From NCBI GenBank assembly GCA_024690825.1, contig JAILOK010000004.1, forward strand, positions 1 to 38,239: a DNA stretch of 38,239 bases, in the 5' to 3' direction. Both the position numbers and the translations under genes were made by a program. Under the pieces are notes generated by a model. The model saw only the letters and a list, made by a program, of their open reading frames with translations. It was not told the origin of the DNA and searched no databases. Shown here piece after piece: positions 4,175 to 10,991 of the stretch. Every line of letters begins with the position of its first letter. The stretch's first letter is position 1. The DNA comes from Lachnospiraceae bacterium (GTDB taxonomy: Bacteria > Bacillota > Clostridia > Lachnospirales > Lachnospiraceae).

Positions 4175-4226
4175 TTTTAAGTTCCGGTAAACAAAATAAC
4201 TGTTTCCTGTGATCGGAGGGAGACTT

Positions 4227-5165
4227 ATGGCAACAGTTTCGTTAAAAACCATCATTCAAAAGATGAATCTGAAAAATCTGACACCGGAAGTTGATATCAC
4301 GCATGTCAAGATCACAAAACCCGATATCAACCGGCCGGCTATGGCGCTTGCGGGTTTTTTCGATCATTTTGATTCCGCGCGTGTGGAGATAATCGGTTTT
4401 GTGGAGTTTTCCTATATGGAAAAAATGGAAACCCAGACAAAGGAAAGGATATATAATGAATTCTTTTCCTACGATGACATACCATGCGTGATCTATTGCA
4501 GGGATATGGAGCCCGATGATCTTTTCAGGCAGATCGCAGTTTCGCATAATGTTCCGATACTCAACACTTCAAAAGCCACATCGGATTTTATGGCAGAAAT
4601 AATCAGGTGGCTGAATGTGAAACTGGCCCCCTGTATTTCCATACACGGAGTTCTGGTGGATGTATTCGGCGAAGGCGTGCTTATAACAGGTGAATCCGGT
4701 ATAGGAAAAAGTGAGGCGGCGCTCGAGCTTATCAAAAGAGGACACAGACTCATTACGGATGATGTGGTAGAGATCAGAAAAGTTTCAGATGATACTCTTG
4801 TCGGATCAGCCCCGGATATCACAAAGCACTTTATTGAACTCAGAGGCATAGGAATTGTAGATGTGAAAGCACTTTTTGGTGCGTCCTCCGTTGAGGAAAC
4901 ACAGAATATAGATCTTGTCATCCGGCTTGAAGACTGGGACAAAGATAAGGATTATGACAGACTGGGACTGGAGGAGGAGTATACCGAATATCTCGGGAAT
5001 AAAGTCGTATGCCACAGCATTCCCATAAGACCGGGCAGAAATCTTGCAGTCATATGCGAAACAGCAGCGGTTAACCACAGACAGAAGAAGATGGGTTATA
5101 ATGCCGCGCAGGAACTTTACAAGAGAGTTCAGGAAAATATGAACAGGAAGGGAGAAGATGAATGA
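4227..5165 (+). CDS. hprK: HPr kinase/phosphorylase
   Basis: Bifunctional enzyme that phosphorylates Ser46 of HPr and Crh with ATP or PPi and removes it again, the sensor of glycolytic state in Firmicute carbon catabolite repression. About 312 residues. The N-terminal domain is followed by Walker A GESGIGKS at residues 155-162, then LITDDVVEI, and the HprK signature ELRGIGIVDV. An in-frame GTG lies at 4209, but GGAGGG at 4215-4220 positions the ATG at 4227. The stop overlaps the glucokinase start (ATGA-type overlap). An HPr-like gene lies five genes downstream in the same run, so kinase and likely substrate are encoded in one cluster. Confidence 0.97.
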   Translation: MATVSLKTIIQKMNLKNLTPEVDITHVKITKPDINRPAMALAGFFDHFDSARVEIIGFVEFSYMEKMETQTKERIYNEFFSYDDIPCVIYCRDMEPDDLFRQIAVSHNVPILNTSKATSDFMAEIIRWLNVKLAPCISIHGVLVDVFGEGVLITGESGIGKSEAALELIKRGHRLITDDVVEIRKVSDDTLVGSAPDITKHFIELRGIGIVDVKALFGASSVEETQNIDLVIRLEDWDKDKDYDRLGLEEEYTEYLGNKVVCHSIPIRPGRNLAVICETAAVNHRQKKMGYNAAQELYKRVQENMNRKGEDE

Positions 5166-6103
5166 GTAAATATGCTTTCGGAATAGATGTTGGAGGAACA
5201 ACGGTAAAACTGGGACTTCTTTCAACTGACGGAGATATCCTTGACAAGTGGGAGATACCTACAAGAGTCGAAGACGGTGGAAAGAATATACTTCCCGATA
5301 TTGCAGAGTCCGTAAAGAACAAGATAGAGGAAAAAGGGCTGAAAGCCTCCGATATAGCGGGAGCCGGAATAGGACTTCCCGGACCTGTTGATGGAAACGG
5401 AGTGATAAACAAAGCTGTAAACCTGCATTGGGACAAGGTTTTTAATGTGGCTGATGAATTGTCCGGACTCCTTATGGGGATGAAAGTAAAGGCCGGAAAC
5501 GATGCAAATGTAGCTGCTTTGGGAGAAGTCTGGCTTGGAGCCGGTAAAGGTTACGATGAGATGGTAATGGTAACGCTTGGCACGGGAGTCGGCGGCGGAC
5601 TGATCCATGAGGGAAAGATAATCGCAGGAGCAACCGGAGCCGGAGGAGAGATCGGGCATATCGCTATAAAACATGATGAAACAGAAGCCTGTAACTGCGG
5701 TAATAAGGGTTGTCTGGAGCAGTATGCTTCCGCCACAGGGATAGTAAGGCTCTTAAAGGAAGAACTTGAAAAAAGCGATGAAGACAGTATTATGAGGCAT
5801 ACCGAGATATCCGCAAAGGAAATGTGGGAAGCAGTAAAAAAGGGAGATGCGCTTGCAACAAGAGTTGCGGAAAAATTCGGTTTTTATCTCGGAACAGGTC
5901 TTTCAATAATTGCGGGGGTTTTAAATCCTCAGGTGTTTGTTCTTGGCGGAGGCGTGTCAAGATCGGGGGATGTGATCCTTCCTTTTATAGAAAAAAATTT
6001 TAAGGAGCATGTTTTCCATGCATGCAGCGGAGCAAAGATAGTAAGGGCAACGCTTGGAAATGACGCAGGTATCGTTGGCGCGGCAAAGATGGTGATAGAT
6101 TGA
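5162..6103 (+). CDS. glcK: ROK-family glucokinase
   Basis: Cytoplasmic kinase making glucose-6-phosphate from glucose and ATP. 313 residues. It begins with the ATP-binding phosphate loop FGIDVGGTTVKLGL, has the sugar-binding stretch NDANVAALGE, a GTGVGGG motif, and the ROK zinc motif CNCGNKGCLEQYAS (CxCGxxGCxE). The start overlaps the hprK stop by 4 bases, and the murB start overlaps its own stop. Grouping with hprK suggests coupling of free-glucose phosphorylation to catabolite control. Substrate specificity within ROK is inferred from overall similarity and context; another hexose is possible. Confidence 0.93.
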   Translation: MSKYAFGIDVGGTTVKLGLLSTDGDILDKWEIPTRVEDGGKNILPDIAESVKNKIEEKGLKASDIAGAGIGLPGPVDGNGVINKAVNLHWDKVFNVADELSGLLMGMKVKAGNDANVAALGEVWLGAGKGYDEMVMVTLGTGVGGGLIHEGKIIAGATGAGGEIGHIAIKHDETEACNCGNKGCLEQYASATGIVRLLKEELEKSDEDSIMRHTEISAKEMWEAVKKGDALATRVAEKFGFYLGTGLSIIAGVLNPQVFVLGGGVSRSGDVILPFIEKNFKEHVFHACSGAKIVRATLGNDAGIVGAAKMVID

Positions 6104-7008
6104 ACTCATTTTTCTTAAAAACCATAACAGATCTTGTAGGCAGCGATCGTATCCTTATGAACGAGGATATGTCAAAGCATACCACCTTTAAGACGGGCGG
6201 TCCGGCAGATATTTTCGTAAGCCCGCGTACAGAAGAAGCCGCATCGGATCTGGTCTGGTATTTAAATGAAACGGTCCGGGACTATTTTATTATCGGAAAC
6301 GGGAGCAATTTGCTGGTAAGTGATCTGGGTTACCGGGGAGTTGTGATAGATCTGTCGGGTCTGGATGAAATAAAGGTTACGGGGAACATCATCACTGCAC
6401 AGACCGGAGCGGCTCTTTCAAAAGTTTCTCATATCGCGGCAGACGAAGGATTAGCCGGTATGGAGGGTCTTTCCGGAATCCCGGGAAGTGTCGGCGGGGC
6501 TGCCGTGATGAATGCCGGGGCCTATGGTGACGAGATGTCGATGGTCGTAAAAAGCGTAAAGGTGGCAGCGGGAAAGGGAAGCTCGGTCGTTCTGACAAAA
6601 AGAGAACTGAAATACGGCTACAGGACCAGCGTTTTCAGAACACATAAATACCTGATCCTTTCAGTGGAATTTGAGCTTGAAAAGGGAGACAGGGACGAGA
6701 TCAGAGAAAAGATCAGACAGAATACGGAAAGCAGAAGAAAAAAACAGCCGCTTGATAAACCCAGTGCCGGATCAACATTTAAAAGACCGGAGGGATATTT
6801 TGCCGGAAAGCTGATAATGGATGCAGGTCTTTCAGGTTTTACCGTGGGGGGTGCCAGGGTTTCGGAGAAGCACTGTGGTTTCATAATCAATACCGGCAGG
6901 GCCACATCCGCCGATATATATGACCTTATAAATGAAATAAGGGAAAGAGTTTATGCCAGATTTGGCGTAAAACTCGAACCGGAAATCTGCATGTTGGGAG
7001 AATTCTGA
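6100..7008 (+). CDS. murB: UDP-N-acetylenolpyruvoylglucosamine reductase
   Basis: FAD enzyme reducing UDP-GlcNAc-enolpyruvate with NADPH to UDP-MurNAc, the second committed step of peptidoglycan synthesis. 302 residues. FAD-binding segments are visible: HTTFKTGGPAD, IIGNGSNLLVSD, GMEGLSGIPGSVGGAAVMNAG. The catalytic region reads PSAGSTFKRP near residue 225, the Ser being the expected proton donor. It starts with TTG overlapping the glucokinase stop; the next ATG (6157) would cut into conserved sequence. Operon with rapZ and whiA, as often seen in Firmicutes. Confidence 0.96.
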   Translation: MNSFFLKTITDLVGSDRILMNEDMSKHTTFKTGGPADIFVSPRTEEAASDLVWYLNETVRDYFIIGNGSNLLVSDLGYRGVVIDLSGLDEIKVTGNIITAQTGAALSKVSHIAADEGLAGMEGLSGIPGSVGGAAVMNAGAYGDEMSMVVKSVKVAAGKGSSVVLTKRELKYGYRTSVFRTHKYLILSVEFELEKGDRDEIREKIRQNTESRRKKQPLDKPSAGSTFKRPEGYFAGKLIMDAGLSGFTVGGARVSEKHCGFIINTGRATSADIYDLINEIRERVYARFGVKLEPEICMLGEF

Positions 7009-7013
7009 ATATC

Positions 7014-7883
7014 ATGAAGCTTATCATCGTAACCGGAATGAGCGGGGCGGGAAAAAGCACATCATTAAAAATGCTGGAAGATATGGGATATTTTTGTATC
7101 GACAATCTTCCTGTTTTTCTTATAGAAAAATTTGCCGAACTTTTTGCCGGAAGGGATGATGAATTTGGCAAAATGGCCATCGGATTTGATGTCAGAACAG
7201 GATTAAAGGATGTAAAAAATGCCATTGATGCCATAAAAAAGACCAATATCGATCATGAGATCCTCTATCTTGATGCTTCGGATGATGTGCTGATAAAGCG
7301 TTTCAAAGAAACAAGACGGGCACATCCTCTTGTTGGAGACGGAAGAGTTGAAGAGGGTATTGAAAAGGAAAGAAAACTCTTAAAATATCTGAAGGAAAAT
7401 GCGACATATATAATAGATACTTCGCAGCTTCTTACGAGAGAACTGAAGGCTGAGCTTAATGAGATCTTTCTGAATAATAAGAGTTTTGGCAATATTTTCA
7501 TAACGATCCTTTCCTTTGGATATAAATATGGAATACCCCATGATGCGGATCTTGTTTTTGATGTGAGATTTCTGCCAAATCCTTATTATATTGATGAACT
7601 TAAGGCTCATACCGGAAATGACAGAGAAGTCCGGGATTTTCTCATGGGTTTTCCGGAATCGGAGGCATTCTTAAACAAACTGGAAGATATGCTCGATTTT
7701 CTGATCCCGAATTATATCACTGAAGGAAAGAACCAGTTGGTGGTGGCAATAGGCTGTACCGGCGGAAAACACAGAAGCGTAACGCTTGCAAACTGCATTT
7801 ATGAGAGACTGAAACAGAAGGAAGATCTGGGTATAAGGATCGAACACAGAGATATAGAAAAGGACGCAAAAAGAGGAAAATAA
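7014..7883 (+). CDS. rapZ: RNase adapter / nucleotide-binding protein RapZ (YvcJ)
   Basis: P-loop protein of the RapZ/YvcJ family. In E. coli RapZ guides RNase E to the GlmZ RNA and so controls amino-sugar synthesis; in Bacillus YvcJ hydrolyses nucleotides and affects competence, so the role here is less certain. 289 residues, usual length. Walker A GMSGAGKS at residues 8-15, DNLPVFLIEKFAEL, the ETRRAHPL stretch, and C-terminal CTGGKHRSVTLA with the conserved His and Arg. It sits between murB and whiA. In many Firmicutes a yvcK-type gene separates rapZ and whiA; here whiA follows immediately. Confidence 0.95.
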   Translation: MKLIIVTGMSGAGKSTSLKMLEDMGYFCIDNLPVFLIEKFAELFAGRDDEFGKMAIGFDVRTGLKDVKNAIDAIKKTNIDHEILYLDASDDVLIKRFKETRRAHPLVGDGRVEEGIEKERKLLKYLKENATYIIDTSQLLTRELKAELNEIFLNNKSFGNIFITILSFGYKYGIPHDADLVFDVRFLPNPYYIDELKAHTGNDREVRDFLMGFPESEAFLNKLEDMLDFLIPNYITEGKNQLVVAIGCTGGKHRSVTLANCIYERLKQKEDLGIRIEHRDIEKDAKRGK

Positions 7884-8792
7884 ATGTCTTTTTCACAGGA
7901 TATAAAGGAACAGATAGCCCGACACTTGCCGCAAAAAAGAAAGGATCGCATTTCTTTTCTTGCGGCAATGTTCATGCAGTGCGGACACAGAAAAGAGATC
8001 TCTGAAAACTGTCCGGCTGTTTATTTTGTAACGGAGAGAGAGGATGTCGCAAGAATATGCTTTACTTTGCTTAAGAAAACATATAATATAAACATTGGCT
8101 GTTCCGTAAAATACGCTCACACAGAGGTTTTCAGGCTAAAGATCAAAGGAGCGGAATCTTTGGATATATGCCGTGATCTGTGCGTTGAAAGAGATCTGGC
8201 AGGACTTGATCTTGATGATGCCGAAAGCCGCAGAGCCTTCATTTCGGGGGCTTTTTTGTGTTCGGGATCCTGCAATGATCCTCAAAAGTCCTATCACCTT
8301 GAAATAGTGTGTGATACTGATGAAAAAGCTGATTTTTTGAAGGAACAGATGGAAAGGTTTGATATAAAGGCAAAAACAGTCTGCCGAAAGAACCATCGGG
8401 TCATATATCTGAAAAACGGGTCGCAGATCGTCGATATGCTGGCATTGATGGATGCCCATGTCAGTCTCATGGTAATGGAGAATTCCAGGATCCTCAAGGA
8501 TATGAGAAATTCGGTAAACCGCAGAGTGAACTGTGAGACGGCCAATATATCAAAAACGGTTTCGGCGGCTGTTAAACAGATAGAGGATATCAGATTCCTC
8601 GAAGAAACAGGCAGACTAAGCGAGCTGAATGCCGGACTTAAGGATATGGCCCGTATAAGACTTGAAAACCCGGAACTTCCTCTTCAGGAACTAGGGAAGT
8701 TTTTTGATCCGCCGATAGGAAAATCCGGGGTAAATCACAGACTCAGGAGTTTATGTGAAGAAGCGGCAAAATACCGTAAGGTAAAAGCCTGA
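7884..8792 (+). CDS. whiA: Sporulation/cell-division regulator WhiA
   Basis: DNA-binding protein needed for sporulation septation in Streptomyces and influencing division and chromosome segregation in Bacillus. 302 residues. The N-terminal two-thirds is a degenerate LAGLIDADG homing-endonuclease-like fold (AFISGAFLCSGSCNDP), and the C-terminal part is a helix-turn-helix domain near residues 220-300 (KSGVNHRLRSL). The ATG directly follows the rapZ stop, with AGAGGAAAA upstream. It is followed within 20 bases by the HPr-like gene, the same order as whiA-crh in Bacillus. Confidence 0.95.
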   Translation: MSFSQDIKEQIARHLPQKRKDRISFLAAMFMQCGHRKEISENCPAVYFVTEREDVARICFTLLKKTYNINIGCSVKYAHTEVFRLKIKGAESLDICRDLCVERDLAGLDLDDAESRRAFISGAFLCSGSCNDPQKSYHLEIVCDTDEKADFLKEQMERFDIKAKTVCRKNHRVIYLKNGSQIVDMLALMDAHVSLMVMENSRILKDMRNSVNRRVNCETANISKTVSAAVKQIEDIRFLEETGRLSELNAGLKDMARIRLENPELPLQELGKFFDPPIGKSGVNHRLRSLCEEAAKYRKVKA

Positions 8793-8811
8793 TTATATGA
8801 GGAGAATTATT

Positions 8812-9069
8812 ATGAAAAAGAAAGAGATCACCGTAAATGTGAAAGGCGGCGATGATGCCAGACCCATCGCTCTTTTGGTCCAGACTGCAAACAGGTATGA
8901 CTCAACTGTTTACATTGACTGGAACCAAAAGCATGTAAATGCAAAGAGTATCATGGGAATGATGTCCCTGGCACTGAAAAACGGAGAAGAAGTTACAGTG
9001 GTAACCGAAGGCGGCGATGAAGAAGAAGCATTAAAGGGAGTAGGAGAATATCTCACAAGTGCGACATAA
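8812..9069 (+). CDS. HPr-like protein lacking His15 (Crh-type regulator)
   Basis: 85-residue HPr-fold protein. HPr normally carries phosphate on His15 for the PTS and is phosphorylated on Ser46 by HprK for CcpA co-repression. Here the active-site segment reads GGDDARPIALLVQ, with Asp at position 15 (codon 8854-8856), so it cannot accept phosphate from Enzyme I through His15. The Ser46 segment AKSIMGMMSLAL is intact (codon 8947-8949). This is the logic of Bacillus Crh, which has Gln15 and Ser46, and the gene likewise follows whiA. I infer a regulatory HprK target and CcpA partner, not a PTS carrier. An in-frame ATG at 8797 exists, but AGGAG at 8800-8804 points to 8812. The fold and residues are certain; the function is inferred. 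Confidence 0.9.
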   Translation: MKKKEITVNVKGGDDARPIALLVQTANRYDSTVYIDWNQKHVNAKSIMGMMSLALKNGEEVTVVTEGGDEEEALKGVGEYLTSAT

Positions 9070-9949
9070 AAAACTGTTTTTTGTATACAATCCCTTCGCC
9101 GGCAAAGAAAGAATAAGGAGCAATTTGCTTGATATAATCGGTATTCTTTCCGGAGCCGGCTATGAGGTTACGGTTCACCCCACCATGAAAAGAGGAGATG
9201 CCGTGAAGGCAGTATCCGAAATATCGGACGATTACGCCATGATCGTGTGTTCCGGGGGTGACGGGACTTTAAACGAGACCATATCCGGCATGATGAAGGG
9301 GAAAAAGCACATACCTCTCGGTTACATACCTGCCGGGACGACCAATGATTTTGCAAGATCACTTGGCATTCCGTCAAGAATGATGGCAGCGGCCGATGCA
9401 ATAGTTTCCGGGAAAAACTTTAGCTGCGATATAGGCACCTTTAATGAAAGATATTTTGTGTATGTAGCGGCATTTGGTCTGTTTACGGATGTGTCCTATG
9501 ATACGGATCAGTATTTAAAAAACACCCTCGGACATTCAGCATATATACTTGAAGGTGCAAAAAGGCTGGGGGAAATAAAGAATGTTCATGTAAAAGCAGC
9601 CTTTAACGGGATCACTCTTGAAGATGATTTTATGTTCGGGATGGTTACAAATTCCCGATCGGTCGGCGGATTTAAGGGACTTACAGGTCCGGATGTCGAT
9701 TTAAATGACGGAGAATTTGAAGTGCTGCTGGTACGCACCACAAAGACGGCTGCTGAATTTCAGGAGGTACTGCGCGCTTTCTTTCTCGGAAAAGGCGATG
9801 CCAAATATGTATATACATTTAAAACCTCTCACATGATAATAGACACGGATGAAGATGTTTCATGGACTTTGGACGGCGAATTCGGGGGCTCCATCCGGCA
9901 CGCACAGATAACGAACTTGAAAAGTGCGGTTGAAATGAAGATACCGTAG
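9059..9949 (+). CDS. Diacylglycerol kinase-family lipid kinase (YegS/BmrU-like)
   Basis: Probable lipid kinase of the DagK/YegS/BmrU family, phosphorylating diacylglycerol or a related lipid at the membrane. 296 residues. N-terminal NPFAGKERI, nucleotide-binding motif SGGDGTLNE near residues 66-73, PAGTTNDFARSLGIP, and the C-terminal beta-sandwich with a late DGEFGG motif. It begins with GTG inside the end of the HPr-like gene, 12 bases after GGAG. The overlap places it in the hprK-whiA transcription unit. The exact lipid substrate cannot be told from sequence. Confidence 0.92.
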   Translation: MRHKKLFFVYNPFAGKERIRSNLLDIIGILSGAGYEVTVHPTMKRGDAVKAVSEISDDYAMIVCSGGDGTLNETISGMMKGKKHIPLGYIPAGTTNDFARSLGIPSRMMAAADAIVSGKNFSCDIGTFNERYFVYVAAFGLFTDVSYDTDQYLKNTLGHSAYILEGAKRLGEIKNVHVKAAFNGITLEDDFMFGMVTNSRSVGGFKGLTGPDVDLNDGEFEVLLVRTTKTAAEFQEVLRAFFLGKGDAKYVYTFKTSHMIIDTDEDVSWTLDGEFGGSIRHAQITNLKSAVEMKIP

Positions 9950-10055: not shown

Positions 10056-10991
10056 ATGCCTTTAGTAACAACAACCGAGATGTTCAAAAAAGCTTATGAC
10101 GGTGGATATGCCATCGGCGCATTCAATGTTAACAACATGGAGATAGTTCAGGCCATTACCGAAGCCGCAAACGAACTTCATTCGCCTATAATCCTTCAGG
10201 CATCTGCAGGAGCACGTAAGTATGCAAAGCAGATATATCTGATGAAACTGGTGGAGGCTGCTGTTGAGGATACCGATATTCCGATCGCCATGCATCTTGA
10301 TCACGGTGCTGATTTTGAGATCTGTAAAGCCTGTGTGGACGGAGGTTTCTCTTCTGTAATGATAGATGCTTCCTCCCAGTCTTTTGAAGATAATGTTGCT
10401 GTTTCAAAGAAGGTTGCTGATTATGCTCACGATAAGGGAGCTGTTGTTGAGGCAGAGCTCGGAACACTTGCCGGAGTTGAGGATGATGTTAATGTAGCGG
10501 ATGATAAGGCAATGTATACAGATCCCGATCAGGTAGAGGAATTTGTAAAGAGGACCGGAGTGGATTCTCTTGCCATCGCTATCGGAACGAGCCACGGAGC
10601 TTACAAATTCAAGCCCGGCACAGATCCGAAACTTCGTCTGGATATTCTGGCAGAAGTTGCAAAGAGGCTTCCCGGTTTCCCGATCGTACTTCATGGATCT
10701 TCATCAGTTCCTCCTAAATATGTCAAGATAATAAATGAGCACGGAGGAGCTCTGAAGGATGCCATCGGTATTCCCGAGGATCAGCTTCGTGAGGCAGCAA
10801 AGGGAGCTGTATGTAAGATAAACATCGATTCAGATCTTCGTCTTGGAATGACTGCAGGCATCAGGGAACACTTTGAAGCGCATCCCGATCATTTTGATCC
10901 CCGTCAGTATCTGACTGATGGACGTGCATATGTCAAAGAGATCGTTCATAACAAGATAATAAATGTACTTGGATCTGACAACAAGGCATGA
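10056..10991 (+). CDS. fba: Class II fructose-1,6-bisphosphate aldolase
   Basis: Zinc-dependent glycolytic enzyme that splits fructose-1,6-bisphosphate into dihydroxyacetone phosphate and glyceraldehyde-3-phosphate. 311 residues, class IIA size. Zinc and catalytic region HLDHGADFE with H80, D82 and H83; further conserved EAELGTLAGVED, GTSHGAYKF, VLHGSSSVP and INIDSDLR segments. It has its own promoter candidate and a strong terminator, so it looks monocistronic, as expected for a highly expressed glycolytic gene. The strong Shine-Dalgarno supports this. Confidence 0.97.
   Translation: MPLVTTTEMFKKAYDGGYAIGAFNVNNMEIVQAITEAANELHSPIILQASAGARKYAKQIYLMKLVEAAVEDTDIPIAMHLDHGADFEICKACVDGGFSSVMIDASSQSFEDNVAVSKKVADYAHDKGAVVEAELGTLAGVEDDVNVADDKAMYTDPDQVEEFVKRTGVDSLAIAIGTSHGAYKFKPGTDPKLRLDILAEVAKRLPGFPIVLHGSSSVPPKYVKIINEHGGALKDAIGIPEDQLREAAKGAVCKINIDSDLRLGMTAGIREHFEAHPDHFDPRQYLTDGRAYVKEIVHNKIINVLGSDNKA

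Follow-up and report, generated by a model that had tools for sequence, protein, structure and literature searches.

In Bacillus, a single HPr protein combines regulatory and phosphotransfer functions. Bacillus subtilis Crh and its relatives (structures 1zvv, 1mo1, and 2rlz) have the HPr fold and Ser46 with SIMG and lack His15; Bacillus Crh has Gln at this position and CcpA as its partner, and the gene directly follows whiA in the order rapZ-whiA-crh. Gln15 was also described for Crh of P. thermoglucosidasius (PMC9631020). According to the available excerpts of a study on G. kaustophilus, crh is transcribed above ptsH, ribose-induced repression was proposed to be exerted by Crh, together with HprK and CcpA, and not by HPr, and unphosphorylated Crh reportedly inhibits methylglyoxal synthase (PMC13130090). 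A clostridial Crh-like protein, Ccel_0806 of Clostridium cellulolyticum, was proposed to act with LacI homologues (PMC3656788). In C. phytofermentans, a cre-like motif was tied to the LacI regulator Cphy2742, in a report whose available text does not mention HPr (PMC5171806). Asp at the phosphohistidine site is known from laboratory His15Asp mutants of HPr (T. saccharolyticum, PMC3526391; Listeria, as cited there; structures 1cm3 and 3ccd). No description of a natural HPr with an acidic residue 15 was found in the available portions of the open-licence literature searched, which is weak evidence.

We analyzed a stretch of 38,239 nucleotides from a Lachnospiraceae bacterium, referred to here as the window. 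The crh-like gene (positions 8812 to 9069, forward strand) starts with the ATG at 8812, with AGGAGA just 5′ of it, and encodes a protein of 85 residues, MKKKEITVNVKGGDDARPIALLVQTANRYDSTVYIDWNQKHVNAKSIMGMMSLALKNGEEVTVVTEGGDEEEALKGVGEYLTSAT. An alternative ATG at 8797, taken from a mechanical list of open reading frames, overlaps the likely ribosome-binding site. The protein matches Pfam PTS-HPr (PF00381) with an E value of 2.9e-26. Codon 15, the site of the PTS phosphohistidine, is GAT (8854 to 8856, forward strand); Asp15 thus stands where a PTS phosphocarrier has its phosphoacceptor, His15. In this respect, the window protein resembles the laboratory mutants, but these are mutations of a PTS HPr, whereas the Asp15 seen here is naturally fixed in a second gene. 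Residue 17 is Arg, and codon 46 (AGT, 8947 to 8949, forward strand) encodes Ser, the presumed target of HprK, in the context NAKSIMGMMSL. The AlphaFold2 model, built from 42 aligned sequences, had a pLDDT of 90.5 and a pTM of 0.81. The lowest ten-residue block was the active-site loop (residues 11 to 20; mean pLDDT, 73), and helix 1 spans residues 17 to 27. Using Foldseek, HPr and Crh structures were the best matches, with T. tengcongensis HPr first; Crh as solved in complex with CcpA and DNA (1zvv) ranked sixth (TM 0.92). The five best PDB sequence matches were all Crh chains. NCBIfam NF010354, which we take to be the Crh model, was the best model for the protein, with 101.2 bits, below its cut-off of 123.

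The gene lies in a run of genes on the same strand, in the order uvrC, hprK, ROK glucokinase, murB, rapZ, whiA, the crh-like gene, lipid kinase, and class II aldolase. The gene for the HPr(Ser) kinase/phosphorylase, hprK (4209 to 5165, TIGR00679; start possibly the ATG at 4227), has a product that, at 367.9 bits, is well above its curated cut-off of 240. HprK carries GESGIGKS, presumably the Walker A motif, aligns along its length with the solved HPr kinase/phosphatase 1ko7, and has no companion in this genome among matches to its C-terminal family. It is followed by the gene for a ROK-family glucokinase (5162 to 6103), which shares 4 bases with hprK at the stop of the latter, and by murB (6100 to 7008), rapZ (yvcJ; 7014 to 7883), and whiA (7884 to 8792). 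A gene for a YegS/BmrU-type lipid kinase (9059 to 9949) begins within the last bases of the crh-like gene, and the gene for a class II fructose-bisphosphate aldolase lies at 10056 to 10991. Fructose-bisphosphate is a known activator of HprK. Short overlaps of a few bases between several of these neighbors suggest an operon. rapZ and whiA abut at 7883-7884. Together with codon 15, Ser46, and the Pfam match, this gene run confirmed the original prediction, made from the letters of the window, of an HPr-fold protein with Asp at the His15 site and an intact Ser46 in an hprK cluster. The Crh-like anatomy that it had proposed was also borne out: an HPr fold, no His15, the Ser46 motif, and a gene after whiA.

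We then tabulated residue 15 at 80 whiA-linked loci of the order Lachnospirales. These comprised 34 WhiA loci of the window's genus (the window's own excluded), 13 of the same family (13 of 14 genomes, G088 being omitted), 16 of other families (from 23 WhiA-positive genomes, with G038, G040, G047, G048, G050, G051, and G055 omitted), and 17 further loci chosen regardless of HPr. The loci were selected without regard to residue 15, and the presence of the gene at 80 of 80 loci is not a linkage frequency. Indeed, the 7 omitted genomes of other families had no HPr beside whiA among the matches listed, so the crh-like gene does not occur throughout the order. Residue 15 was Asp at 40 loci, Glu at 36, Gly at 2, and Val and Ile at 1 each; neither His nor Gln occurred among the 80. 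Ser46 was conserved at 80/80, SIMG at positions 46 to 49 at 77/80, and Arg17 at 76/80. Within the window's genus, Asp prevailed (32 of 34 loci, with one Gly and one Val), while Glu was the main residue in other genera of the family (Glu 11, Asp 1, and Gly 1 of 13) and in other families of the order (Glu 25, Asp 7, and Ile 1 of 33). The nearest relative (L058), 95% identical, also has Asp15. The Asp15 of the window protein is therefore no local oddity, and an acidic residue, found at 76 of the 80 loci, is common to most sampled relatives. This bears out the suspicion that the substitution is lineage-wide.

A scan of named genomes gave a comparable picture (Glu 61, Asp 9, Gln 8, Gly 1, and Ala 1 among the best 80 of 580 confirmed loci), but its peptide patterns contained NAKSIMG and E or D at residue 15, so these tallies are biased and illustrative only. 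Five of the eight Gln15 loci belong to Bacillales (Robertmurraya, Geomicrobium, Domibacillus, Metabacillus, and Mesobacillus). Without these five, the 75 remaining loci had Glu 61, Asp 9, Gln 3, Gly 1, and Ala 1, and all 75 had SIMG. Merging both samples gives 155 rows, 149 of them distinct and some from the same species; our counts rest on the 80. No whiA was seen at 2 of the 75 named loci, at one of which (L189) the contig ends. At the other (L175), a Gln15 relative has an aldolase gene in its locus but no whiA in the 6 kb upstream, and it is possible that this gene has left the whiA cluster.

The named loci also allowed us to assess gene linkage. The original prediction had placed hprK and a glucokinase gene in one tight run with the crh-like gene, which holds for the window, and had suggested that this could be a self-contained module; linkage with glucokinase is common but not general. 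At 59 of the non-Bacillales named loci, the upstream sequence is at least 7.5 kb long. Of these, murB was found upstream at 59 and rapZ at 51, but hprK at only 41, with none found at 18, and glucokinase at 32. The linkage of the crh-like gene to hprK is thus common but not universal. Of the 61 non-Bacillales loci with at least 3.5 kb downstream, 21 had the aldolase gene and 22 the lipid kinase gene. The five Bacillales loci share the order rapZ-whiA-crh with the window and with B. subtilis but differ in two respects. hprK was in the same run at none of them (one had only 4 kb upstream), and all five have a yvcK-sized gap between rapZ and whiA, compared to 3 of 61 measurable non-Bacillales named loci; the window cluster has no such gap.

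Outside the order, we analyzed 139 WhiA loci from class and phylum samples, chosen regardless of HPr (L245 was dropped as a repeat of G077). An HPr-like gene was present in the stretch at 23 of them. Residue 15 was His in 15 of these, Gln in 4, and Tyr, Thr, Asn, and Lys in 1 each, and none of the 23 had an acidic residue. Ser46 was found in 23/23 and SIMG in 18/23. In this sample, an acidic residue 15 marks the order, and the whiA-linked position outside it often holds a full HPr with His15. Such whiA-linked HPrs of other Bacillota (e.g., L336, L342, and L272) occupy the same place behind whiA and share the Ser46 motif with the window protein, but they keep His15 and could therefore serve both functions.

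To relate these proteins, a tree was calculated from 106 rows and 78 columns, with column 15 omitted and 15 long rows dropped. Sixty whiA-linked sequences of the order formed one side of a branch with a support of 99/95, and the Bacillales Crh sequences were placed among whiA-linked sequences with His15. Parsimony gave five changes between His and not-His on the tree, which favors several independent losses of His15. By this measure, Bacillales Crh and the order likely lost the histidine independently. However, the 78 columns are few, and the AU test did not reject a tree that unites Bacillales Crh with the order clade (p 0.30). Likewise, the whiA-linked sequences are not all joined in the free tree, but holding them together was equally good (p 0.51). 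The window protein probably works like Crh, as a variant of the Bacillus Crh kind. We did not file it as Bacillus Crh itself, since it has Asp instead of Gln at residue 15, scores below the NCBIfam cut-off, and comes from a genome in which no CcpA partner was recognized; strict orthology was neither supported by the tree nor rejected by the AU test.

The rest of the system was searched for in the genome assembly, which is 99.41% complete. It contains three HPr-family matches: the window protein, an HPr with His15 on contig 114, and a short form on contig 97. The contig 114 protein has a Pfam HPr match, sits behind a glmM-like gene, and reads NAKSVLSVLGA at the Ser46 site; it is the second, true HPr that was expected elsewhere in the genome. 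The suggested search for ptsI was also successful. The genome encodes an Enzyme I with all three domains (N-terminal, mobile, and PEP-binding), and its mobile domain keeps a His in GSGSGHAALIAR, which we take to be the motif of that domain. On contig 112 (L034, 477 to 3213), the Enzyme I gene lies directly behind a gene for a PfkB-family sugar kinase, an arrangement that suggests a fructose-type PTS operon. In having a separate His15 HPr, this genome differs from C. cellulolyticum, which is said to lack an HPr orthologue in the available text of the report (PMC3656788).

We next compared the whiA-linked proteins of the order with 64 HPrs that are not linked to whiA (L001; 23 loci from the matches listed; and 40 picked from the matches listed). 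This set is non-random: about half of it comes from the same genus or shows SVLS, and it does not include HPr domains that are part of long fused frames. Residue 15 was His in 63 and Gln in 1. Residue 46 was Ser in 50, Lys in 8, Ala in 5, and Gly in 1. SIMG at positions 46 to 49 was found in none of the 64, compared to 77 of the 80 whiA-linked loci; the commonest form was SVLS (32/64). The 14 proteins with Lys, Ala, or Gly at position 46 (e.g., L011, L015, L017, L032, L381, and L388) have no Ser46 and cannot be HprK targets there. The regulatory and the phosphotransfer faces of HPr thus appear to reside in separate proteins in the sampled order. We regard this split as the strongest new point of the analysis, within the limits of 64 non-randomly chosen proteins, many from the window's genus. 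HprK might also act on the 50 of these 64 HPrs that have Ser46.

Binding to CcpA, which the original prediction had proposed to assay, is not supported by the content of this genome. Five LacI-type proteins matched the CcpA model TIGR01481, the best with 175 bits, and none of the five reached the cut-off of 442. The cut-off was passed by none of 146 genomes of the order, two of which had a match at an E value of 1e-80 or better, and by none of 138 genomes of the class (six of them from this order), of which 11 had such a match. As the model is thus strict for Clostridia, the absence of CcpA rests on the residues that contact HPr, which we take to be Tyr295, Asp296, Arg303, and Lys307 (B. megaterium numbers). 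In B. subtilis CcpA, Arg304 was described as a contact of the Ser46 phosphate (PMC4591507). All four residues were present in 7 of 12 class-level matches, and an eighth has Phe295 and the other three. Conversely, Asp296, Arg303, and Lys307 did not occur together in any of 20 order-level matches (a few alignments stop before 307). The two best matches in this genome, L115 and L116, have His, Glu, Arg, and Asp at positions 295, 296, 303, and 307. A third (L117) has Ala and Gln at 295 and 296, after which the alignment ends, and the other two have a sensor-like build without a visible LacI DNA-binding part. L116, the second best, has a gene for a malQ-type 4-alpha-glucanotransferase in its locus (Pfam, 541 bits), and L115, the best, has a closely similar neighbor gene. 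These two closely similar LacI and 4-alpha-glucanotransferase loci (contigs 17 and 120) are possibly a recent duplication. No recognizable CcpA is present in this genome, judging by these residues. A diverged CcpA-like partner may nevertheless exist, because TIGR01481 is strict.

Together, these results make it likely that the window protein is a Crh-type regulatory HPr that is controlled by HprK and uncoupled from the PTS, that the PTS is served by the His15 HPr and Enzyme I, and that the output is probably not classical CcpA. According to this model, HprK from the same gene run would phosphorylate and dephosphorylate Ser46 depending on the glycolytic state of the cell. Having no His15, the protein would carry no PTS phosphoryl group and would take no part in PTS transfer. 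The separate His15 HPr and Enzyme I, both present, would run the PTS branch. As no CcpA was found, the target of the window protein is presumably a different one.

Several explanations for the acidic residue itself were considered. An error of sequencing or a decaying gene, to which only the missing histidine points, was set aside as extremely improbable: His15 was seen at none of the 80 fetched whiA-linked loci of the order, the nearest relative also has Asp, and the rest of the protein is conserved. We also rejected a salt bridge between Asp15 and Arg17 as the whole reason, because the four of 80 loci without Arg17 are still acidic and the four non-acidic ones keep Arg17; the biased named set gave the same pattern (4/75 without Arg17 acidic, and 5/75 non-acidic with Arg17). 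The loss of Arg17 with retained acidity, together with the dedicated His15 HPr, also speaks against the idea that Enzyme I phosphorylates Asp15 or Glu15 to an acyl phosphate, which would couple the protein to the PTS by other chemistry. Enzyme I is present, but the His15Asp mutant of E. coli HPr reportedly accepted the phosphoryl group at a very low rate. Although the titles of His15Asp HPr structures (3ccd and 1cm2, also 1cm3) name post-succinimide and ringed species, we consider such an acyl phosphate very improbable. It is possible, but rather doubtful, that the acidic residue is purely structural and stabilizes the start of helix 1 once His is dispensable, the Gln of Bacillus Crh being another solution. 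Residue 15 lies just before helix 1, Glu and Asp interchange within the order, and the 8 of 23 HPrs outside the order that lack His have various residues (Gln 4, Thr 1, Tyr 1, Asn 1, and Lys 1). However, Glu, which is less suited as an N-cap than Asp, Ser, or Thr, occurs almost as often as Asp (36 and 40 of 80), and the acidic fraction was higher in only 1 of 79 columns (column 69; column 70 was equal), which suggests selection for charge.

The acidic residue could also permanently mimic phospho-His15, a possibility that the original prediction had raised alongside metal binding. The protein would then stay in a state that is not bound by classical CcpA, would remain usable by HprK at Ser46, and would change its choice of partner beyond the mere loss of PTS transfer. 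The available text on T. saccharolyticum reports that the HPr His15Asp mutant relieves catabolite repression (PMC3526391). An acidic residue 15 would thus be expected to weaken classical CcpA binding. This agrees with the picture in the order, where 76 of 80 loci are acidic and the CcpA cut-off is passed by 0 of 146 genomes, but does not prove the mimicry. Yet Gly, Val, or Ile occurs at four of the 80 loci, the four without Arg17 are still acidic, and the class sample also has no genome over the cut-off (0/138) although none of its 13 whiA-linked HPrs has an acidic residue 15. We therefore judge the mimicry unlikely; helix-start stabilization and mimicry explain residue 15 about equally well. 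The occurrence of Glu in about half of the loci and of Gly, Val, or Ile in 4/80 argues that an acid at this position is preferred, not essential. Finally, the window protein could be an ordinary corepressor of a diverged LacI-family protein that replaces CcpA and is adapted to the acidic residue. This too seems improbable, though less so than an acyl phosphate. A genome with a Glu15 protein (G041) has a LacI-type protein, L120 (318 bits), with His for Asp at CcpA position 296 and Arg303 kept, and in the available text C. cellulolyticum was modelled with a Crh-like protein acting via LacI homologues (PMC3656788). This is a single case, however, and L120 lacks Lys307, while L115 and L116, with their His, Glu, Arg, and Asp and the malQ-type locus of the latter, look like local maltose regulators. 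We do not claim a covariation of residue 15 with CcpA position 296, since L120 is the only case.

Extending the Crh-type reading to the order, we tentatively propose that in Lachnospirales the HprK pathway may run via a dedicated Crh with an acidic residue 15, which would have taken over Ser46 signaling from the PTS HPr and would act on a target other than CcpA; at present we hold this broader proposal to be possible rather than probable. Lachnospiraceae are major fiber degraders of the gut and rumen, and the literature searched says little about their order of preference among carbon sources. If the proposal is true, a large gut and rumen group has a carbon catabolite control that is free of CcpA and uncoupled from the PTS. 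If the split between HPr proteins holds, the Bacillus model, with one HPr for both jobs and CcpA as output, is not simply transferable, and the missing target of the phosphorylated window protein becomes a directly testable question. Moreover, His, Gln, Glu, and Asp at residue 15 in one gene position provide a natural series for studying the control of partner choice by the phosphohistidine.

The third HPr-family match of the genome is a short HPr-fold protein encoded on contig 97 (L003, 1456 to 1686). It has 76 residues, matches PTS-HPr with 23.8 bits, and lacks the His15 loop, but retains DAKSIMGIFSL at the Ser46 site. These features would make it a candidate for a further substrate of HprK, one that has no phosphotransfer site. 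A close likeness of this protein was found in Fusicatenibacter (L186).
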